Assembly: GCF_000968055.1 (NCBI RefSeq)
Contig: NC_022538.1
Span: 1,461,499 to 1,525,498 of the forward strand
Origin: Alteracholeplasma palmae J233
Lineage (GTDB): Bacteria; Bacillota_I; Bacilli_A; Acholeplasmatales; Acholeplasmataceae
DNA: 64,000 nucleotides
Direction of reading: 5' to 3'
Shown here: positions 1 to 23,415 of the stretch, in pieces
How positions within the stretch are numbered: the first letter of the stretch is position 1
Layout: each line of letters starts with the position of its first letter
The notes under the pieces: model-generated
The model's input: only the letters and a program-made list of their open reading frames with translations
What the model was told of the DNA's origin: nothing
Databases searched by the model: none
Program-made: the position numbers and the translations under genes

Positions 1-1057
<1,057 letters not shown>

Positions 1058-1108
1058 TATATTTCTTTTCTTTTAACAGAATTTTATCTACTTTTCAAAG
1101 ATCTCTTT

Positions 1109-1184
1109 TGGTGGAGCTTAGCGGGATCGAACCGCTGACCTCCTGCGTGCAAGGCAGGCGCTCTCCCAGCTGAGCTAAAGCCCC
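1109..1184 (-). tRNA. tRNA-Ala (UGC)
   Basis: 76-nt cloverleaf starting GGGGCUUUAGCUCAGC and ending in an encoded CCA. The anticodon loop CUUGCAC between CCUGC/GCAGG arms gives anticodon UGC. It sits in the 16S-23S spacer, 6 nt from tRNA-Ile, and would be cut from the rRNA precursor. Confidence 0.97.
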
Positions 1185-1190
1185 AAATAA

Positions 1191-1267
<77 letters not shown>

Positions 1268-1321
1268 GTTATTTATATAACTTGCTTTGCTGCCACCGTA
1301 GAAACACTAAATATTAATTAT

Positions 1322-1350
1322 AGTCTTTCAAAACTGAATATGATGAGTAA
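1322..1350 (-). other. 16S processing stem, 3' arm
   Basis: In the 16S-tRNA-Ile spacer. The segment is the near-exact reverse complement of 2965-2994 in the 16S leader (one mismatch and a one-base offset over about 29 nt). The two would pair in the precursor and bring the 16S ends together, as RNase III processing stems do in other bacteria. Confidence 0.75.
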
Positions 1351-1384
1351 TTTGGTTGTTGCATTTTTAATGCCTTTCTCCTTA

Positions 1385-2900
<1,516 letters not shown>

Positions 2901-2964
2901 TTTATTTTTGTAATTGTTTTTCTTAACTCATTTTGTTTTGCGTTATCTTTATAACGCGTTATCC

Positions 2965-2994
2965 TTACTCATCATCATTCAGTTTTCAAAGACT
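2965..2994 (-). other. 16S processing stem, 5' arm
   Basis: Leader segment between the rrn promoter and 16S; read on the minus strand it contains CTTTGAAAACTGAA, also reminiscent of the Bacillus rRNA spacer/boxA-type element. It pairs with 1322-1350. Confidence 0.7.
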
Positions 2995-3029
2995 TAATTG
3001 CTTGCTCGCTATTTCTAACGCGCTTATTC

Positions 3030-3058
3030 ATTTTATCATTATAAAACACCCTTGTCAA
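3030..3058 (-). promoter_or_regulatory. rRNA operon promoter
   Basis: Minus strand: -35 TTGACA (3053-3058), 17-nt spacer, -10 TAAAAT (3030-3035). Predicted start near 3023, about 120 nt upstream of mature 16S. It lies just downstream of tRNA-Tyr, so the operon can also receive readthrough from that tRNA. Confidence 0.8.
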
Positions 3059-3106
3059 GCATGATTTTCACATTTTTTTCAAGGATTGTTTTTTAACAAT
3101 TCAAGA

Positions 3107-3190
3107 TGGTGGAGGGGGACAGATTCGAACTGTCGAACCGTTAGGAACAGATTTACAGTCTGCCGCGTTTAGCCACTTCGCTACCCCTCC
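3107..3190 (-). tRNA. tRNA-Tyr (GUA)
   Basis: 84-nt tRNA with a long variable arm, starting GGAGGGGUAGCGAAGUGG and ending in encoded CCA. The anticodon loop CUGUAAA gives GUA. The long variable arm is normal for bacterial tRNA-Tyr. No terminator with a U-run is visible between it and the rRNA promoter. Confidence 0.96.
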
Positions 3191-3208
3191 AAATTCACTT
3201 GCCTAATC

Positions 3209-3237
3209 ATTCTATCGCATCAAAGATAAAAAATCAA
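3209..3237 (-). promoter_or_regulatory. tRNA-Tyr promoter
   Basis: Minus strand: TTGATT (3232-3237), 17-nt spacer, TAGAAT (3209-3214), about 19 nt from the tRNA 5' end. Confidence 0.65.
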
Positions 3238-3304
3238 CACTTTTTTAAAACTTTTTTCTTTTTTTTGCTTTTTCTCTATACTATTTATAAAGAAGAGGTG
3301 AAAA

Positions 3305-3475
3305 TCAGTCTTTTTTAATGATTTTTTTGTCTAATTCTCGTTTTGGAAGCATAATTTCTCGTTGACAATTCGTACAAACAAGTTTGATGTCTGCACCTAT
3401 TCTTTTGACTTCCCATTCATTTTTACCACAGGCGTGGTTCTTTTTTGTATATATTTTTTCACCTATGCTATACAT
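3305..3475 (-). CDS. DUF951 family protein (YyzM-like), 56 aa
   Basis: A 56-residue ORF. Its ATG is the base next to the parB stop, so it is the last gene of the par operon. It has the DUF951 pattern: basic, an HACG segment, a central RIGADIKLVC stretch with a CTNC motif, and MLPKREL near the end. B. subtilis YyzM is the homologue I have in mind, and it also lies near spo0J. Cys/His content (HACG...CTNC) suggests a small zinc-binding fold. Molecular function is not established. Too short to be picked up by many gene callers. Confidence 0.85.
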   Translation of the reverse strand: MYSIGEKIYTKKNHACGKNEWEVKRIGADIKLVCTNCQREIMLPKRELDKKIIKKD

Positions 3476-4318
3476 TTAGTAATCATCCTTTAATAAAATA
3501 TTAATAATATCATTTATTTTTTCTTCTGTTAATTTAGAAATAACTATTTTATTAGTAAATATTTTAGCTGAAACTTGATATTTTTCTTTAATTTTCTTTT
3601 CGTATTTTTGAAAAATTTCAGGTTTTCTTTGAACTTTTATTTTTTTAGCTTTACTTTCTCTTTGAGTTAGTTCTTCAATTTGTCTAACAGATAAATTTTC
3701 ATTAATAATTTTTTTAGCTAGTTGTATGATTTTTTCTGAATCTTCTAGCTTTGATAAAGCCCTTGCGTGGCCCATAGATAGTTTATTTTCTAACATCATT
3801 TGCTGTACTTCAGCTGGTAAATTTAATAATCCTAGCATATTTGTTACATGAGATCTGCTTTTTCCTATTTTGATTGCAAGATCATTTTGTGTAATTTCTA
3901 ATTGTTTCATGATATTTAAGTAAGCTTCTGCTTCTTCAATAGCCGTTAAATCTTCTCTTTGTAAATTTTCAACAAGTGCTATTTCAGCAACCTTATCTTC
4001 TTGATATGCTCTAATGATTGCAGGAATTGTTTTTTTGCCTACTAATTGAGAAGCTCTAAATCTTCTTTCACCTGAAACAATGATATAACCTTCTTTAACT
4101 GTTTTTAAAATAATAGGTTGAAAAACACCATGTTCTTCGATTGAATTAGCCAATTCTCTTATTTTTTCAGGGTTAAAGATACGTCTTGGTTGAAAAGGGT
4201 TAGGTTTAATCTTAGAAAGCTCGACCTCTAAGACAACCTCTCCTTCTAATACTTCATCAATATGATGTTCTTTTATTAAATCTTCTAATTTTCTAGGTTT
4301 TAAGTTATTTGGCTTCAT
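3476..4318 (-). CDS. parB: Chromosome partitioning protein ParB (Spo0J)
   Basis: 280 residues. The N-terminal ParB/CTPase domain carries PFQPRR and GERRFRAS, the motifs that bind CTP and let ParB clamp on DNA next to parS. A KorB-like helix-turn-helix follows (ITQNDLAIKIGKSRSHVTNM, then a helical linker), and a basic C-terminal dimerisation segment. The chosen ATG at 4318 lies 12 nt after an AAGGAGG site; an upstream TTG precedes that site and is unlikely. It overlaps parA by 14 nt. With ParA it should segregate the origin region. Confidence 0.95.
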   Translation of the reverse strand: MKPNNLKPRKLEDLIKEHHIDEVLEGEVVLEVELSKIKPNPFQPRRIFNPEKIRELANSIEEHGVFQPIILKTVKEGYIIVSGERRFRASQLVGKKTIPAIIRAYQEDKVAEIALVENLQREDLTAIEEAEAYLNIMKQLEITQNDLAIKIGKSRSHVTNMLGLLNLPAEVQQMMLENKLSMGHARALSKLEDSEKIIQLAKKIINENLSVRQIEELTQRESKAKKIKVQRKPEIFQKYEKKIKEKYQVSAKIFTNKIVISKLTEEKINDIINILLKDDY

Positions 4319-15602: not shown

Positions 15603-15935
15603 TTATTTTTCCGGAAAGATAACAGTTAATAACATTTTAAACTGTTCTTTTGCAAATAAGGCATGTGCCACATTAGCTGGCATAATGATAGATTGGTTTT
15701 CTGTTAATTCAAATATTTCATCACCAATTTCAATCACTGCACTTCCTTCAAGAATAGTTACTAAGGCATCTCCAGGAGATTTATGTTTAGTTAATCCTTC
15801 GTTTTTATCAAATGCAAAAGCAGTTAAGCTTACATTTTTATTTTGTGACAAGGTTTTACTTACAACTTGTCCTTTTTGATATACCACTTCATCTTTGAAG
15901 CTAAAAACTGTTGCGTGTTCTATATTTTTAATCAT
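15603..15935 (-). CDS. Small cupin-domain protein
   Basis: 110 residues, a single cupin beta-barrel. Motif 1 region is GLTKHKSPGDALVTILEG, with a histidine but not the complete set of metal ligands; motif 2 region is IIMPANVAHALFA. Similar small cupins bind metals or small ligands; no reaction can be assigned. Its start overlaps the end of the Gx-type transporter gene by 8 nt. Confidence 0.8.
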   Translation of the reverse strand: MIKNIEHATVFSFKDEVVYQKGQVVSKTLSQNKNVSLTAFAFDKNEGLTKHKSPGDALVTILEGSAVIEIGDEIFELTENQSIIMPANVAHALFAKEQFKMLLTVIFPEK

Positions 15936-16470
15936 TTGTTTCTTCCTCTTTTTCTTCTACAATTTTTTTACTTTTTTGTAAACTTTGGATAAACCCAGTT
16001 TTAAGTAATTTTAACGAGATAATTCCAGTAAGAATACCTGCTGGAATACTTGTTAATAACATCACTGGTAAATATAAATAAAGTATAGTGGTCGCAAGTA
16101 TTTGTGTGCCTATAAGTATTTGTCCAATTGCATGAAAAATAGAACCCATAACACTTACAGTAATCATATTAAACTTAAGTTTTTTTATCACTTGCATCAC
16201 TATAACAGATAAGATACCTCCAGCTAACCCCATCATAAAGGTAATAGAAAAGGATCTTGATAATAAAGCAACCAATACTACTCTAAAAATAGTAATGATA
16301 AAAGCCTCTTTAAAACCATACATATAAAAGACAAGTAGCGTAATGATATTTGCAAACCCTATCTTTGCAGAAGGTACGGGTATAATCGGATAAAACCCTT
16401 CTAAAATACTTAAAATAATTGAGATAGCAAGCAGATTAGAAAGAATGACCATTTTTTTTAAATCTTTCAT
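15928..16470 (-). CDS. Gx transporter family membrane protein (heptaprenyl diphosphate synthase component I-like)
   Basis: 180 residues, about five membrane helices, matching the Hpre_diP_synt_I/Gx transporter family (PIIPVPSAKIGFANIITLL is the recognisable signature). Despite the old family name the protein looks like an ECF S-component-type membrane protein rather than a prenyl synthase. Members often sit beside NusG_II and ApbE or FMN-binding proteins, including in the Listeria extracellular electron transfer locus as I recall. The ligand is unknown. Overlaps its upstream neighbour by 4 nt. Confidence 0.8.
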   Translation of the reverse strand: MKDLKKMVILSNLLAISIILSILEGFYPIIPVPSAKIGFANIITLLVFYMYGFKEAFIITIFRVVLVALLSRSFSITFMMGLAGGILSVIVMQVIKKLKFNMITVSVMGSIFHAIGQILIGTQILATTILYLYLPVMLLTSIPAGILTGIISLKLLKTGFIQSLQKSKKIVEEKEEETND

Positions 16471-16913
16471 ACTGCACCATCCACTAATGAATCTTCAAAA
16501 ATAATACTGATACTATTAGGAGCTGATATAAGCGGTAGTCCATTACCATCATACCAACCTCTATTAACAGCTATTTGATAAGGTGACTCATCTTTCTTTA
16601 TTCTAATCCTTTTTAAATTAAAATCAACATCTATATAGACTAATGTTTTTTTATTATCTACTTTATAATCGCCTAGGACAATTATTTGCTTTATATTAGG
16701 TTCATCTGTATCACTAATCACTGGATAACCTTCTTCAACATTTGTTATATTAATTTTATTGGTATTAAAATCGATTGTTGAAAGTATTTTATTTCTATAA
16801 TAAACAATTGCTTGTGATCCTTCTTTTTTAGTAGGTATAGTCACTAAATAAATAACTAACGCAATGACTAACACTATGCTAATGACTACAATATCTTTTA
16901 AATATTTTTTCAT
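16467..16913 (-). CDS. NusG domain II-type extracytoplasmic protein
   Basis: 148 residues. One N-terminal membrane anchor (IVVISIVLVIALVIYLVTI), then a small beta-rich domain ending GWYDGNGLPLISAPNSISI. This resembles the NusG_II (DUF1312) proteins commonly paired with the Gx-type membrane protein that follows. It is not a transcription factor. Probably exposed outside the membrane; it may help flavin delivery or electron transfer, but that is inference from neighbourhood. Confidence 0.75.
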   Translation of the reverse strand: MKKYLKDIVVISIVLVIALVIYLVTIPTKKEGSQAIVYYRNKILSTIDFNTNKINITNVEEGYPVISDTDEPNIKQIIVLGDYKVDNKKTLVYIDVDFNLKRIRIKKDESPYQIAVNRGWYDGNGLPLISAPNSISIIFEDSLVDGAV

Positions 16914-16914
16914 C

Positions 16915-18036
16915 TTATTCTGACCATTTAAATTGATATTTGTCAGTGTTTATGTGAAGTGTTGCTGCCCTTTCATTATTTTCATAATATATGACTTCAT
17001 ACTGGTTTTCTTTAATGAATTTATCCAATACTTCTTTTGGCATATTAAACATAGCAGTTGTTAATGCATCTGCTTTTGCTACATCTTTTGAAATCAAAGT
17101 CACTGTATGATAGTAATTAAGTGGCATTTTTTCTTTTGGAGAAACTATGTGATGATATATTTGTTTTTCATCACCTTTAATAAATTCAACAAATTGTTCA
17201 TGGTTTCCACTGGTTGTAATACCGTTATTCTCTAGTTCAACTGTTCCGTAGTATTCTTTTGTTTTTAAAGGATCTACAAGTCCAATTAAATACTTCTTAC
17301 TAGTTTTTTTATAATTACTACCCATAATCATTGAACTTGAACCTGCACTAATTAGATAACTGGTAACTTTTTGTTCTTCTAAATATTTTCTAACAAGTTC
17401 TAAGGCATAACCTTTAGCGAGTGCACCTAAATCAATTTTAGCGCCTTTTTTAATAGTTAAAAAATATTTACCCTCTGCTTCTTTTATGATTATTGGTCTA
17501 TTTACTTCTTCTATTTTTTCTATTTCACTTTTTATTTTATTAATTTTATCATTAATTTCTTCTTGTGTTAAATCATTTTTTTCTCTAATCACACTTTTCC
17601 ATTTATCAATAATATTTCCAAGTGAAATAGAAAAATATTGCACGCCATCAATTACTGTTTCTTGTTCCATTAATAAGCCAAAATAAACTAACTCATATAA
17701 TTCTTTTTGAACTTCAAAAGTCTCTTCTAAATTATCTGAACTTGCTATTTTGCTATTTATTTTATAAACGTTATTTTCTGATGTTAATTGATATAACGAA
17801 TTAGAATCTAACTTGATTTTATCTGTTTCATTATCTGCTAAAACATGATAAAAATCAAATGTGTCTTCAATAAACTTATAATGTTTTTCATATGCTTCTT
17901 TAATTTCTAAATCTATAGTCACTGAAACTGCAGTGCCCATAGTTGAAAAAGTTCCTCTAAATCTTTCTACTTTTTGACAAGATGACAATATAAAAGAAAG
18001 TAAGATGAGTATAATAAGATTGATTTTTTTTGTCAT
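16915..18036 (-). CDS. apbE: FAD:protein FMN transferase ApbE (lipoprotein)
   Basis: 373 residues. Signal peptide with lipobox LSSC near residue 20, so it is anchored outside the membrane. Attaches FMN from FAD to Thr in Dxx(s/t)gAT motifs. Family motifs: DLGALAKGYA near residue 213, ISAGSSSMIMG, a TTSGN segment, HHIVSPKEK and ADALTTAMF. ATG 18036 is chosen; an ATG 14 codons earlier lies inside rnfA. Substrates are likely RnfD and the two RnfG proteins in the same operon. It occupies the place where rnfB is usual. Confidence 0.93.
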   Translation of the reverse strand: MTKKINLIILILLSFILSSCQKVERFRGTFSTMGTAVSVTIDLEIKEAYEKHYKFIEDTFDFYHVLADNETDKIKLDSNSLYQLTSENNVYKINSKIASSDNLEETFEVQKELYELVYFGLLMEQETVIDGVQYFSISLGNIIDKWKSVIREKNDLTQEEINDKINKIKSEIEKIEEVNRPIIIKEAEGKYFLTIKKGAKIDLGALAKGYALELVRKYLEEQKVTSYLISAGSSSMIMGSNYKKTSKKYLIGLVDPLKTKEYYGTVELENNGITTSGNHEQFVEFIKGDEKQIYHHIVSPKEKMPLNYYHTVTLISKDVAKADALTTAMFNMPKEVLDKFIKENQYEVIYYENNERAATLHINTDKYQFKWSE

Positions 18037-18046
18037 CACACACCCC

Positions 18047-18613
18047 TTAAAATATTCCTGCAAGACCTCTAAAGGCAACTGCCATTACACCTAATATAAT
18101 TAAAAGCATTGGTAATCCCTTAATCACTAAACTATCTGGAGCTGTTTTTAGTCTTACTTGAATTGTTGTTAATAATACCATCACACCCATATAACCTAAA
18201 AGTGAGCCCAACACAACTGCTAGTGCACTTAAAAATGAGTTTTCTTGATATGACATCAAGGTAATAAATATCACTGCTGAGTTTAATATCATATTAGATA
18301 TTAACTCCTTATACTGATCCTTATTCTTTTTATTAAGTAAGTACGTAATTAATGCATGTAGCCCTACCATTAACAATACTACTAATAAGTAATTAAAGTA
18401 TCCTAAGTCAAAAGGTTTTAAACCATATTGATAAATAGGATATGAAACTAGAAAAATAACTAATGTGAATAATGAAACACATCCACTATACTTTAAAACT
18501 GGAACAATCCTTGTTTCATCCTTTAAACTGTCTTCTGTCAAAGCTGTTTTAGTTAAAACAACATTTTGATAGAATAAGGCACTCAAAATCGTCGCAATAA
18601 ATGTAAAAATCAT
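18047..18613 (-). CDS. rnfA: RnfA-like membrane subunit without 2Fe-2S cysteines
   Basis: 188 residues, six predicted membrane helices. It aligns along its length with RnfA (VNNFVL region as YQNVVLTK; C-terminal IQVRLKTAP and LGVMAVAFRGLAG). In E. coli RsxA the cluster ligands are the Cys of GLCPFMG and of TTNCAVLG; here the matching places read KTALTED and LNSAVIF, so neither Cys remains. The one Cys present (YSGCVS) is elsewhere. Overlaps rnfE by 4 nt. Confidence 0.85.
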   Translation of the reverse strand: MIFTFIATILSALFYQNVVLTKTALTEDSLKDETRIVPVLKYSGCVSLFTLVIFLVSYPIYQYGLKPFDLGYFNYLLVVLLMVGLHALITYLLNKKNKDQYKELISNMILNSAVIFITLMSYQENSFLSALAVVLGSLLGYMGVMVLLTTIQVRLKTAPDSLVIKGLPMLLIILGVMAVAFRGLAGIF

Positions 18614-19203
18614 TTTCCTTCACCTTCCTTTTTTGAAAATAAGGCAAATGCAATAGCTGCAACAATCCCAGTTATAATAAAGCCTCCTGAAATATCAACT
18701 AATAAACTTATTGCATATTTACTATCAAAAATAGAAATGCTATTTTGAGCAATTAAACTAAATTGGATACTACCTGTTCCAAGCACTTCTCTTAAAAGAG
18801 AAACAATTAAAATAACTATAAATGTTAATAAACTTGTTTGTATATTTCTTTTTAAACTTATCATACGATCTGAGACTAATTCTGCATAACCGATCACTAC
18901 TATATTAATAATGAAAAGTGATAAATAAAGTCCTGAATTTGTAATATCATTAGGTAATACTAATTTTAATAATAACCCAACAATCGTCATTTGCATCGCA
19001 ACTAATATGATATAAGCATATGTTCTATGCGTGCCTTTTAAATTGTCTTTTAAAAAATAGGCAATAAGGGTTGTCACTATAGAGATAACAAATAAGATAA
19101 TTGCTGAAATAAGCCCTTTTTCAAAACTTGTTGCGATAAGTAAAATAGGCATCATGCTAAAGAAAACTGCAAAAGTTTGATTCTTTAAATAATCATATTT
19201 CAT
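18610..19203 (-). CDS. rnfE: RnfE-like membrane subunit without 2Fe-2S cysteines
   Basis: 197 residues, six predicted helices. Similarity to RsxE/RnfE is clear around IIVMIIAS (YIILVAMQM), GRAEAF (GYAELV) and SLREIIGNG (SLLREVLGTG). The cysteines of GLCPLLAV and TNCIVVG are replaced: SMMPILL and INIVVIG. The protein has no cysteine at all. RnfA and RnfE normally hold one 2Fe-2S cluster between them in the membrane; that cluster cannot form here as known. Confidence 0.85.
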   Translation of the reverse strand: MKYDYLKNQTFAVFFSMMPILLIATSFEKGLISAIILFVISIVTTLIAYFLKDNLKGTHRTYAYIILVAMQMTIVGLLLKLVLPNDITNSGLYLSLFIINIVVIGYAELVSDRMISLKRNIQTSLLTFIVILIVSLLREVLGTGSIQFSLIAQNSISIFDSKYAISLLVDISGGFIITGIVAAIAFALFSKKEGEGK

Positions 19204-20078
19204 TTTACCACCCCTTGAATCACTTCAATCATTGTTTTAATCAGGGTAGTTGAATTAGTAGCCCCACTTGGTTCTGGTAATTCTAGATCGATGCTTTTTC
19301 CAATTAATCCAGATACATACTTATCTGAATGTTCTTTCCAATTGCCACCACTATGTTTGTATAAATCACTTGGCAACAAGGCCTTTTTAATTATTTTGTC
19401 ACCATCTAAAGCAATTAATAATGTAATGTCTTCATTAGAATTTAAGGCAAGACCATTTGCGGTATATTGATAAACTGTATATTCAGTATTTCCTGTTTTA
19501 ACCTTTGTGATAACTACATTTTTATCCTTACTAATTTCTCCAACAACTTCATATGTTTCACCTAGAAGTTCTTCAATATAGTTCTTATTTAATCCATAAT
19601 GGTAATTAATCACTTCTTGAACTGTTTGTTTAACTGTGTTTCTACTCACGCCAATAGTAGTGGCCCCTGCTGCGCCATCAACATACTCAACATTTTCATA
19701 ATAAATACCTTGGTAATTTTTAAGAATATATTCTCTTACTTGTTTAATATAACTTTGTGTTTGTTCTATTTTATTATCACTTACTAATACTTTATCATTT
19801 GTATCAAATGCTACAAATAATTCTATACTACCAAAGCCATTTTTAGTTTCAGTAAAATAGAGTGTACCCAGTTTTTTACCAAACTTTGATTCAACATTTT
19901 GTTTGTAAATTAAATTACCTTCTTTAAGATATTCTTTTTCTGATAAAACTACTTTTTGAGAAAATAATTTATCTACTTTTGTCGTGGGCATAAAATTTTG
20001 ATAAATAACTACTAATAGTACTGAAATTAAAGCCATTAAACCAAATCCAATACATAATTTAATATTTTCTTTTTTCAT
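19200..20078 (-). CDS. RnfG-like protein with two FMN-binding domains (second copy)
   Basis: 292 residues. One N-terminal membrane anchor, then FMN_bind domain 1 with the flavinylation motif DGAAGAT near residue 142 (Ala where Ser/Thr is usual), then domain 2 ending PEPSGATNSTTL near residue 272, which keeps SGAT but lacks the Asp three residues before Ser. Should lie outside the membrane with FMN esterified by ApbE. Overlaps rnfE by 4 nt. It is a diverged paralogue of the protein encoded next upstream. Confidence 0.85.
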   Translation of the reverse strand: MKKENIKLCIGFGLMALISVLLVVIYQNFMPTTKVDKLFSQKVVLSEKEYLKEGNLIYKQNVESKFGKKLGTLYFTETKNGFGSIELFVAFDTNDKVLVSDNKIEQTQSYIKQVREYILKNYQGIYYENVEYVDGAAGATTIGVSRNTVKQTVQEVINYHYGLNKNYIEELLGETYEVVGEISKDKNVVITKVKTGNTEYTVYQYTANGLALNSNEDITLLIALDGDKIIKKALLPSDLYKHSGGNWKEHSDKYVSGLIGKSIDLELPEPSGATNSTTLIKTMIEVIQGVVK

Positions 20079-20080
20079 GA

Positions 20081-21022
20081 TTATTTATCTCCCTCATAGT
20101 CTCTTACTTCTCTTATCATATTTAGTAACAATCTTCTCGTATTACCTGGTTCATTTGCTTGTGATGGTGCTGTATCACTGTCTGTAATACTGCTAATGAC
20201 TTTATTAATAAAGGTCTTAGCATATTCTAAAACACCATCATAATAACCACCCTTAGTATGATGATAATTGTCTAATGGTAGTTCAACTCCTAAGATTTTA
20301 CCTTCACTATCAAGTAGGATAACTGCTTGAATACTACTAGCTTGACTTCCATCTTCACCAATACCTGATTTTTCTATTGTATAAACTTTACCTTGATTTA
20401 AAATAGTTTCTACCTTTTTAATGGTTTTTGTCACATCTGTTTGAGTTTCACTGATAACATAATCATTTGAAAACCATTTTTCATAAGGTTTAACTGCTAC
20501 TTTTTCTATTCTACTATTCGCATCACTTATATCACGAATGAGACTATCTAATGTATGAATACTGACTGAGGTTGCCCCACTGTTTGCATCCACTAGTTTG
20601 TCTAGTTGCTTTCCTTTATAAGCTAAGGCAGCATTTTTAGTATTTTCTTGATACATTGTTTGTTCTAAAATAGTTATTTCTGTTTTGATAATTTTATCGC
20701 TCTTATCTGTAATTAAAATAAGTTCTATCCTACCAAAACTGTTTTCTTCTAAAGCTTTAAAATAATATCCAACCACTTTACTTTCGTTTAGCAAAATAGC
20801 CTTCGCTTTAATACTTGGCATATCTTTATTATCTATTTTAAGTATATCTAAATCATTGAAAATAAGTTCTTCATTTAAATAGCCTTGAATTTCTTTTTTC
20901 ATGGTATTTTTTTCTTTAGTAGTTACTAAAGGATTAATAAGAATATAACAAAGAACAGTAATAAGAATGCTTAAAGTGATAATTAGTCCTAAGATAACTA
21001 AAGATTTTTTATTTTGACTCAT
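20081..21022 (-). CDS. rnfG: RnfG-like protein with two FMN-binding domains (first copy)
   Basis: 313 residues. N-terminal membrane helix (LVILGLIITLSILITVLCYIL), then FMN_bind domain 1 with a full DANSGAT flavinylation motif near residue 155. A second domain of the same shape ends in a degenerate EPGNTRRLL where the paralogue has SGATNST. ATG 21022 overlaps the rnfD stop (ATGA) and is 9 nt from AGGAGG. In Rnf complexes RnfG carries covalent FMN on the outer face and passes electrons between RnfA/E and RnfD. Confidence 0.88.
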   Translation of the reverse strand: MSQNKKSLVILGLIITLSILITVLCYILINPLVTTKEKNTMKKEIQGYLNEELIFNDLDILKIDNKDMPSIKAKAILLNESKVVGYYFKALEENSFGRIELILITDKSDKIIKTEITILEQTMYQENTKNAALAYKGKQLDKLVDANSGATSVSIHTLDSLIRDISDANSRIEKVAVKPYEKWFSNDYVISETQTDVTKTIKKVETILNQGKVYTIEKSGIGEDGSQASSIQAVILLDSEGKILGVELPLDNYHHTKGGYYDGVLEYAKTFINKVISSITDSDTAPSQANEPGNTRRLLLNMIREVRDYEGDK

Positions 21023-22089
21023 ATCACCCATCCTCCTAATACTAGAATAGTTGATATAACAACAACCGCTAATGATACTCCATAACCAATGTAGAATTTT
21101 TTAGTATATTTATTAGTTGCCCATTTAGGATAATCTATTAAAGGTACTAAAATATTTCCTATAAGTAAGGCAATCGCAACCCCCTCAGGATACGCACCAA
21201 ATACTCTAATTAAGAATACTAAAACTCCTATAATCATCCCATAAATCCATCTACCTGGTCTAGTAATTGGCGATGTAACAGGATCTGTTACCATAAAGAA
21301 CAATCCAAATAATAACCCACCACTAAATATATGATAAACAATAAACTCTAACCAATAATTTTCTTGAATGATAAAAGCGGCTGGGATTAATAAAGCTAGA
21401 AAAGCTAATGTTGCAGATAAAATCGGTCTATAATCTGCAGATCTTCTTATAAGTAAATACACACCACCTATAAGTATTGCAATACTATTAATCTCGCCCA
21501 TAGCACCAGGAATGTTTCCTATGATCATATCAAGTAAACTATAAGTTTCTAATACCTTGGGAAACTCTAAAGATAAAGCAGTTGCCCCACTCACAGCATC
21601 TATTGCTGAATATGCACTTGTTGCAAAGAGCGCAGTTAAAGCAAAACCAGCAAATAGTCTACCGAATGCTGCAGGGTTTAAAAGATTATTGCCTAAACCA
21701 CCAAAAAACATTTTAGCAACAAATATTGCAAAAAAGGATGCAATCACAATGACATAAAATGAAATTTTATCTGGTAATAATAATCCTAAAATAAGTCCTG
21801 TAACAGCTGGTGCAGTTATATTATTAATGGTATATGTTTCCCATCTTTTTTTAACTTTATCTAAAAAACTTTTCCCCTCTACTCTTTTAAATAATAAAAT
21901 ATAGGTTGCTTCAAATAAAACAGATAGTAAAACTGATACAATCAATCTTGTTAAAGCACTCATTCCACTTTTATAAATAGCAAATACAACAACCGGTACT
22001 AAAGCAATTAAAACATCCACCATCATTCTTTTAGTACTTGTGTCTTTTCTAATATATGGACTTGTTTGATTTGTTATACGAACATTCAT
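21019..22089 (-). CDS. rnfD: RnfD, membrane subunit with covalent FMN
   Basis: 356 residues, about nine membrane helices, NqrB/RnfD family. Signatures: TSPYIRKDTSTKRMM at the N-terminus, GGLGNNLLNPAAFGR around residue 130, the flavinylation motif DAVSGAT near residue 165, and MVTDPVTSP. This subunit forms the ion path in Nqr and Rnf complexes. All recognised features are intact, in contrast with RnfA and RnfE. Downstream of rnfC by one base. Confidence 0.94.
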   Translation of the reverse strand: MNVRITNQTSPYIRKDTSTKRMMVDVLIALVPVVVFAIYKSGMSALTRLIVSVLLSVLFEATYILLFKRVEGKSFLDKVKKRWETYTINNITAPAVTGLILGLLLPDKISFYVIVIASFFAIFVAKMFFGGLGNNLLNPAAFGRLFAGFALTALFATSAYSAIDAVSGATALSLEFPKVLETYSLLDMIIGNIPGAMGEINSIAILIGGVYLLIRRSADYRPILSATLAFLALLIPAAFIIQENYWLEFIVYHIFSGGLLFGLFFMVTDPVTSPITRPGRWIYGMIIGVLVFLIRVFGAYPEGVAIALLIGNILVPLIDYPKWATNKYTKKFYIGYGVSLAVVVISTILVLGGWVI

Positions 22090-22090
22090 T

Positions 22091-23398
22091 TTACTGTCCC
22101 CCTGTTTTAAGTAAGGCTTTACCTTTTCTCATGTAGTCAGTTAAATGAATTTTAGAAGGACATACAAAAGAACATAACCCGCATTCAATACATTTATTGA
22201 CTGCTAAATCAACTAAAAAACCAGTATCTTTTCTTTTAAAAGCATTCATAATTTGTACTGGTTGAATTTCAACAGGACATGAATATACACAAGACGCACA
22301 ATGAATACAAGGTTCTTCTTCTCTTACTACTTCATTATTAATAATTAAACTTGTCATTGTATGTGTTAAAACTAGGTCACTTGAAGAAACGCTTGTTCCC
22401 ATCATTGGACCTCCAACTATTAATGTCTTATTAAGATCTAAATCTTTGTATCCACCAGCAAGTTCTAAAAGTTCTTCTATCGAAGTACCAATTCTTACTC
22501 TAAAGTTTTTATTATGTGCACCATCGCCACTAATAGTAAAGAATCTTTCTAAGACTGGTAATCTTTTTTTTACGGCATGATATAAACTTACTAAAGTTGA
22601 AACATTAAAGTTAATAATGCCATATTCAGAAGTAATCTTACCTTGTGGTATTTTTATACCTGTAGCACTTTTAATTGTTTCTAGTTCCCATCCTTGTGGG
22701 TAGTAATTCCCTACAAGTTTAACCTTTAAATCATATTGTGGGAAATCTTTAATAGCAAAACTTAATCTAGCTTCTAATTCTTTATTCTTTTCTTTAATAG
22801 CAATAATACCTTTTTTGGCACCTACTGCTTTCATAGAATATATAAGCCCTAGAATCATTTCTTCAGGATGGCGCATTAATATTTCATAGTCACTAATTAA
22901 ATTAGGTTCACACTCAACACCATTAGCAACCACAATATCCACTGGATGTTTAGCATTCAGTTTAATATAAGTAGGAAAACCACTTCCACCTAATCCAACT
23001 AATCCTGAATTTTTAGCAATATCTATAAAATCTTGTTTAGTAAGATTCATAATTTCTTCATCTGTTCTATCATAGATAGATTCATGAAGTTCATATTTCT
23101 TATCATTTTTAACAATTAAGCAATCTACTAAACGTCCACTTTGATCCATTTTCTTTTCATATCCCATAATTTCACCGCTTGCGGTTGCATGTATAGGTTG
23201 TTCAAAAAACGCACCTTTTCTAACTCCAATTTCTTCCCCAACTTTGACAAACTGTCCCATAATAACACAAGTTTCCCCTTCTGGACATCTTTGATTAGTA
23301 ATTGGATAGTATAAATAATCAGCATCCAGGTAATGCAAAATAGGTAGTTTTTTCAATACCTTTTTTCCATCAGGAATTTCCCTAGTTTTTTGTATCAT
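22091..23398 (-). CDS. rnfC: RnfC, NADH-oxidising iron-sulfur subunit
   Basis: 435 residues. N-terminal RnfC domain, then a 51-kDa-type nucleotide/FMN fold (GLGGSGFPTYIK) and YPQG segment, an SLBB-like region, and two 4Fe-4S motifs: CIHCASCVYSCP and CIECGLCSFVCP. It should sit on the cytoplasmic face and exchange electrons with NAD(H). ATG 23398 follows AAGGAGG by 5 nt; a GTG two codons upstream overlaps that site. First rnf gene, 17 nt after glyA. Confidence 0.93.
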   Translation of the reverse strand: MIQKTREIPDGKKVLKKLPILHYLDADYLYYPITNQRCPEGETCVIMGQFVKVGEEIGVRKGAFFEQPIHATASGEIMGYEKKMDQSGRLVDCLIVKNDKKYELHESIYDRTDEEIMNLTKQDFIDIAKNSGLVGLGGSGFPTYIKLNAKHPVDIVVANGVECEPNLISDYEILMRHPEEMILGLIYSMKAVGAKKGIIAIKEKNKELEARLSFAIKDFPQYDLKVKLVGNYYPQGWELETIKSATGIKIPQGKITSEYGIINFNVSTLVSLYHAVKKRLPVLERFFTISGDGAHNKNFRVRIGTSIEELLELAGGYKDLDLNKTLIVGGPMMGTSVSSSDLVLTHTMTSLIINNEVVREEEPCIHCASCVYSCPVEIQPVQIMNAFKRKDTGFLVDLAVNKCIECGLCSFVCPSKIHLTDYMRKGKALLKTGGQ

Positions 23399-23415
23399 AG
23401 GCACCTCCTTATTTT

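Follow-up and report, generated by a model that had tools for sequence, protein, structure and literature searches.

An Rnf operon of Alteracholeplasma palmae that lacks RnfB and the cluster cysteines of RnfA and RnfE

Rnf, related complexes and the operon of A. palmae

Rnf (RnfABCDGE) is a Na+/H+-translocating ferredoxin:NAD+ oxidoreductase with a U-shaped electron path, in which a [2Fe-2S] cluster is buried between RnfA and RnfE and RnfC holds two [4Fe-4S] clusters and an FMN; both the RnfA/RnfE cluster and RnfB are regarded as indispensable. Electrons run from ferredoxin via RnfB, the RnfA/RnfE cluster, the FMN of RnfG and the FMN/riboflavin of RnfD to RnfC and NAD+ (PMC12174285). The solved complexes provide no direct transfer between RnfB and RnfC, and RnfG contacts chiefly RnfA and RnfE; mutants in the cluster cysteines lose ferredoxin:NAD+ activity, and in A. 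woodii free-energy work links the movement of Na+ to reduction of the cluster (PMC11889175). Whether ions pass via RnfD or via RnfA/RnfE, whose half-helices are transporter-like, has been left open (PMC12174285). The NQR/RNF-like systems have two genes, an RnfD-NqrF fusion and no RnfA or RnfE, and are found mainly in Actinobacteria and CPR (Meheust et al. 2021, PMC8238504; PMC11334425); their RnfD-like part has no flavinylation site (Huang et al. 2024, PMC11334425). A survey of flavinylation called Rnf by the presence of RnfB, and NQR/RNF-like systems by the RnfD-NqrF fusion (PMC8238504). Rnf has also been listed as a trait that divides acholeplasmas from phytoplasmas (PMC4221730).

Here we describe an Rnf operon of Alteracholeplasma palmae J233, the genome of which is a single contig of 1,554,229 bases (99.87% complete). 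Positions are those of the window, i.e. the whole stretch of 64,000 nucleotides that was analysed (contig NC_022538.1, 1,461,499 to 1,525,498, forward strand). The operon reads, in this order:

22091..23404, minus strand: rnfC, NADH/FMN subunit, 437 aa (Pfam RnfC_N and Complex1_51K; TIGR01945 above cut-off); both [4Fe-4S] motifs are complete (CIHCASCVYSC and CIECGLCSFVC)
21019..22089, minus strand: rnfD, membrane flavin subunit, 356 aa (PF03116, E 3e-84), with the FMN motif DAVSGATALS retained
20081..21031, minus strand: rnfG1, extracellular FMN subunit, 316 aa, motif VDANSGATSVS (operon HMM of relatives and motif; no Pfam match at 1e-3)
19200..20078, minus strand: rnfG2, second RnfG paralogue, 292 aa, motif VDGAAGATTIG (operon HMM of relatives and motif)
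18610..19203, minus strand: rnfE, 197 aa, no cysteine (PF02508; alignments; fold model matches 9eri_E)
18047..18613, minus strand: rnfA, 188 aa (PF02508; alignments; fold model matches 8ahx_A and 9eri_A)
16915..18078, minus strand: apbE, flavin transferase, 387 aa counted from the first start codon (PF02424, E 3e-42)
16467..16913, minus strand: NusG_II-domain protein, 148 aa, a conserved operon member (PF07009; same place in most relatives)
15928..16470, minus strand: Gx/Hpre_diP_synt_I membrane protein, 180 aa, a conserved operon member (PF07456; same place in most relatives)

By place and gene order this is orthologous to the Rnf operon of canonical relatives. RnfC, RnfD, RnfG and ApbE have their cofactor motifs, and RnfA and RnfE are recognisable by sequence and fold. 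Aligned with solved RnfD and NqrB chains, the window RnfD also retains the NPA and TDPVTSPIT stretches, and both RnfG proteins carry the ApbE-type FMN motif, which together with the apbE gene predicts flavin attachment. What distinguishes A. palmae from Rnf as described is that RnfB, the [2Fe-2S] ligands of RnfA and RnfE, a small protein that we call X and, genome-wide, pyruvate:ferredoxin oxidoreductase (PFOR) are all missing, and so there is no ferredoxin arm. The complex is thus orthologous to Rnf but without two of the features by which Rnf is defined. The literature searched contained no account of an Rnf that lacks RnfB or the RnfA/RnfE ligands; an earlier note on this DNA likewise knew of no described Rnf with such a loss. 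Elsewhere in the window, positions 1-4000 have a GC content of 42%, vs. about 30% over the remainder, and may be ribosomal RNA.

Cluster cysteines, RnfB, protein X and PFOR

The earlier note had placed rnfE and rnfA correctly, on the minus strand at the positions listed above, and had read both as Rnf homologues. Both products do pass the Pfam cut-off for Rnf-Nqr (PF02508), with only 52 and 40 bits vs. about 160-210 in canonical relatives, and fall below the NCBIfam cut-offs for rnfA and rnfE. AlphaFold models of the two proteins (mean pLDDT 79) have the RnfE and RnfA folds as best matches, with TM-scores of 0.69-0.75 to the solved folds, an agreement that is partly imposed by the canonical rows in the input alignments. 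The central claim of the note, that all four ligand cysteines of the [2Fe-2S] cluster are absent, is borne out by alignment with relatives and with the solved chains of A. woodii, C. tetanomorphum and A. vinelandii, which sets the ligand positions and puts other residues there: M18 (19150-19152) and I101 (18901-18903) in RnfE, and E27 (18533-18535) and S112 (18278-18280) in RnfA. RnfE indeed has no cysteine at all, and the single cysteine of RnfA, C45, lies off the ligand positions and is not shared by the sister species (G001). Nor is there a second, intact copy that could form the real complex: a whole-genome search returns just these two PF02508 genes.

The loss extends well beyond this strain. 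Searching 61 relatives with PF02508 gave a clean split between strong (canonical) and weak scorers, and an order-wide search of 160 genomes, based on aligned RnfE proteins of the odd type and followed by retrieval of the loci, produced 13 Rnf operons in which none of the four ligand cysteines is present, one per species and in three genera. These are the genus of A. palmae J233 and G001 (g1), a genus with three species (g4: G004, G017 and G028) and one with eight (g12), to which A. laidlawii PG-8A (G063), A. oculi (G064) and A. equifetale (G061) belong by putative assignment. The loss is therefore fixed across 13 species. In a class-wide search for more such RnfE proteins (395 genomes), from which unrelated convergent losses could escape, the same genera alone stood out, and the weak scorers that were checked are canonical by their PF02508 score. 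None of the 13 loci has another cysteine at the cluster positions, their alignment shows no conserved replacement ligand at the four sites, and in g4 and g12 the second ligand site is affected by deletions. Chance or sequencing error can be dismissed as the cause, because the loss is fixed in G001 and two further genera and recurs in a second type of RnfE/RnfA pair (see below). The loss of all four ligand cysteines in A. palmae J233 is thus confirmed.

What the earlier note overlooked is that the cysteines did not go alone. Canonical relatives have two small genes between rnfA and apbE, encoding a short RnfB and the unnamed protein X. The short RnfB (e.g. L039:6142-6462, L041:5859-6176, L051:6874-7185 and further canonical loci) is about 106 aa long and combines a single predicted TM segment with a single [4Fe-4S] domain (PF04060). 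It lacks the C-terminal polyferredoxin region of the solved Rnf and scores under the NCBIfam rnfB cut-off. X (e.g. L039:6459-6671, L043:8017-8226 and further canonical loci), a protein of about 70 aa with a single TM segment and, in most cases, four cysteines, sits between rnfA and rnfB in 88 of 88 canonical loci. In the window operon RnfB is absent, and apbE abuts rnfA at the spot where relatives have rnfX and rnfB; in the other loci without ligand cysteines rnfA likewise abuts apbE, or almost. Counted over 101 non-redundant loci with complete RnfA and RnfE, 88 have four ligand cysteines, RnfB and X, and 13 have no ligand cysteine and neither protein, with no exception and no intermediate. 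Loss of RnfB, the cluster ligands and X as a coherent module is therefore shown, although only one or two evolutionary events, and not 13, stand behind this perfect association.

Relocation of either gene to another part of the genome was considered and rejected. Whole-genome searches found no PF04060 domain in A. palmae J233, G001, G004, G017, G028, G012, G025 or G034, and X likewise went undetected in all 13 genomes with cysteine-free ligand sites, whereas three controls were positive; one sub-threshold match to X in G025 contains a stop. PFOR (PF01558) is present in every genome with canonical Rnf among the 61 and in none of the eight tested genomes of the other type, an absence that is no proof of the absence of ferredoxin. 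Eight of 12 X sequences gave a weak match to FeoB_associated (PF12669), at best with E 3e-4, and PF04400, used to assess X as an NqrM candidate, matched neither X nor any control. X may be a cluster-maturation factor or a small electron carrier or input subunit of Rnf. The co-absence of RnfB, X and PFOR offers an explanation for the loss of the cysteines from RnfA and RnfE.

Conservation, descent and likely working of the remaining arm

With no shortcut between RnfB and RnfC, loss of RnfB and the cluster amounts to loss of the ferredoxin arm, with NADH, RnfC, RnfD and RnfG left, and a missing PFOR means that the ferredoxin arm would have little to carry. The explanation that we favour, and consider rather probable, is a half-Rnf in which the ferredoxin arm was lost, the NADH arm was kept and RnfA and RnfE serve as a scaffold. 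Ferredoxin input, RnfB, the RnfA/RnfE cluster and possibly X, as maturation factor of the cluster, would have been lost together as one module, with this first arm deleted in organisms that lack PFOR. The remaining arm would carry electrons from cytosolic NADH via RnfC and RnfD to the RnfG FMN on the outside and on to an external acceptor, so that NAD+ would be regenerated by an outward route; this would require that the RnfG FMN come within reach of RnfD in the absence of movements driven by the cluster. RnfA and RnfE would have no cofactor and would serve to hold RnfG and RnfD in place, and the pumping of ions gated by the cluster would be gone. The operon of Acholeplasma, including that of A. 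laidlawii, would then probably now be a one-way NADH outlet instead of an ion pump. A search for a partner reductase as acceptor gave no obvious one, and PF04205, a model that also misses the operon's own RnfG proteins, found no further FMN-binding protein in the A. palmae genome. The membrane NADH oxidase once purified from A. laidlawii may be linked to this half-Rnf.

The remaining arm of RnfC, RnfD and two RnfG proteins is shown to be conserved, and ApbE is kept. RnfC and RnfD in the 13 loci are conserved to the same degree as in canonical ones, keeping 56 of 57 and 39 of 41 canonical-invariant residues, respectively; the RnfC clusters and the RnfD FMN motif are kept, and most RnfG proteins have FMN motifs. 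RnfE and RnfA, in contrast, keep only 5 of 49 and 8 of 53. At equal RnfD divergence, canonical RnfA and RnfE are more conserved than RnfD, whereas those without ligand cysteines are far less so. Nevertheless, both are intact, full-length ORFs in 13 of 13 species. Their dN/dS is about 0.1 for the closest pair and 0.2-0.5 between more distant sequences, for which saturation is partial, vs. 0.03-0.06 for canonical RnfA and RnfE. Selection on the two proteins is thus relaxed yet still purifying. Both points that the earlier note wanted tested, fixation of the loss in the clade and purifying selection, hold. Among the RnfG proteins, one of the two in G004 (RnfG1, 313 aa, L034:8735-9676) has no recognisable FMN motif, and RnfG2 of G017 (582 aa, L053:8596-10344) has three FMN-type motifs.

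The flanking genes (glyA and yebC upstream, the rpmE and tdk side downstream) and the gene order match those of canonical relatives, which points to vertical descent of the operon and led us to reject horizontal acquisition of an odd Rnf. In an rpoB/C tree A. palmae and G001 are sister to the phytoplasmas, which have no PF02508 gene and no Rnf; g12 joins next and g4 is placed elsewhere. An RnfC+RnfD tree also groups g1 with g12 and sets g4 apart, but the AU test does not reject a single clade (p 0.14 and 0.24). Proof of independent losses therefore fails, and one or two origins are both possible.

This history bears on the strongest alternative. The erosion of RnfA and RnfE could also be slow decay, with the complex disappearing as in the phytoplasmas, the two proteins functionless remnants and RnfC, RnfD and RnfG surviving for now. 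The sister position of the phytoplasmas, the loss of nearly all canonical invariant residues from RnfA and RnfE and their fast evolution would fit this. We nevertheless consider it improbable, given full-length reading frames in 13 species of three genera, the dN/dS values, RnfC and RnfD conserved to the canonical level and an unaltered operon order. Whole Rnf, half-Rnf and no Rnf suggest themselves as possible stages towards phytoplasma reduction.

Two further alternatives give RnfA and RnfE a more active part, and we rate both as distinctly unlikely. The proteins might have exchanged the [2Fe-2S] cluster for another cofactor or for non-cysteine ligands, remaining a transmembrane carrier with a donor in place of RnfB; their retention with a fold that the models predict to be kept would agree with this, as would the cavity left by the cluster, which calls for an explanation. 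However, no residue at or near the four positions is conserved among the clades without cysteines, the second site is deleted in g12 and g4, and no replacement subunit is encoded in the operon, where apbE comes right after rnfA. Lastly, RnfA and RnfE could form an ion channel or transporter that is conformationally coupled to the NADH-RnfC-RnfD-RnfG path, Na+ being pumped or used without the cluster, as the question of the ion route left open in PMC12174285, the transporter-like half-helices described there and the retention in the g1 RnfE of R60 and E108, equivalent to the R67/E115 ion pair of A. woodii, might suggest, but neither residue is retained in g4 or g12, and the link between Na+ movement and cluster reduction in A. 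woodii (PMC11889175) also speaks against it.

The loss of the ferredoxin arm, our preferred reading, also answers a choice that the earlier note had posed, between a path rewired around flavins only and a complex that is losing its redox role. The first would stand in a specific form, as a path via the flavins of the NADH arm. The second does not stand as worded: the NADH half is intact and conserved, so the redox role is not wholly lost, and only its ferredoxin-dependent, cluster-gated part would be.

Relation to known systems and other cysteine-free pairs

In solved Rnf, RnfC, RnfD and RnfG form one path, and it is one-way flow along this path that we infer for the half-Rnf. Na+-NQR has a homologous core (A/E, B/D and C/G) and is likewise without RnfB. 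It differs from the half-Rnf in having NqrF in place of RnfB and all four cluster cysteines; conversely, the RnfC of the half-Rnf has redox centres that are absent from NqrA, and a profile search found no NqrF match within the window. Gram-positive flavin-based extracellular electron transfer (Ndh2/EetAB/PplA/FmnB) is similar in outline, in that electrons of cytosolic NADH reach a surface protein flavinylated by ApbE; its membrane proteins are others, and a quinone takes part. In its working the half-Rnf would resemble the NQR/RNF-like one-way complexes, in which a single path connects NAD(P)H with an FMN protein outside the cytosol (PMC8238504; PMC11334425). Unlike these, the half-Rnf has RnfC as NADH subunit, an FMN site on RnfD, and RnfA and RnfE, and the window RnfD is a plain PF03116 protein without a fused PF00175 NAD-binding domain. 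By the definition of PMC8238504 the half-Rnf is thus not a member, and the criteria of that survey would let it fall between categories and be missed.

We tentatively propose, with confidence a little short of even, that the half-Rnf is a new Rnf architecture, which arose when the ferredoxin arm was deleted in a coordinated way and which runs one-way from NADH to extracellular flavin with RnfA and RnfE as a cofactor-free scaffold, that X is a new factor for maturation of the Rnf [2Fe-2S] cluster, or else a small subunit for electron input, and that the Rnf of Acholeplasma is not a ferredoxin-driven ion pump. If this is true, the last point applies to the annotated Rnf of A. laidlawii as well, and the reading of Acholeplasma energy metabolism changes. 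X is nominated as a candidate for Rnf cluster assembly. A long-lived natural lineage without the cluster, RnfB and the main source of ferredoxin, but with RnfC, RnfD, RnfG and eroded RnfA and RnfE, also provides a test of the roles of the individual parts.

Cluster-free RnfA/RnfE pairs occur in two contexts. Besides the operons above, two other genera (g3 and g10) have a separate type of RnfE/RnfA pair, again with no ligand cysteine in five of five sampled copies (L036:11121-15807, L037:2-1200, L062:5192-9253, L063:3742-7404 and L064:3065-5786). This pair follows an RnfD-like protein fused to at least one FMN-binding domain and is itself followed directly by nqrBCDEF; in g10 (L036) it also adjoins cydAB. 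At the level of the loci, the nqr operons of the order are nqrBCDEF with no adjacent nqrA (L040, L051:11491-15297, L036, L044 and L047). Genus g12 also has Nqr beside the half-Rnf, with NqrC-like proteins of 662-825 aa that contain three or four FMN-binding domains; NqrC-like multi-FMN proteins are located at G063:C1:991785-993425, G012:C1:191364-193043 and G064:C5:73428-74633.
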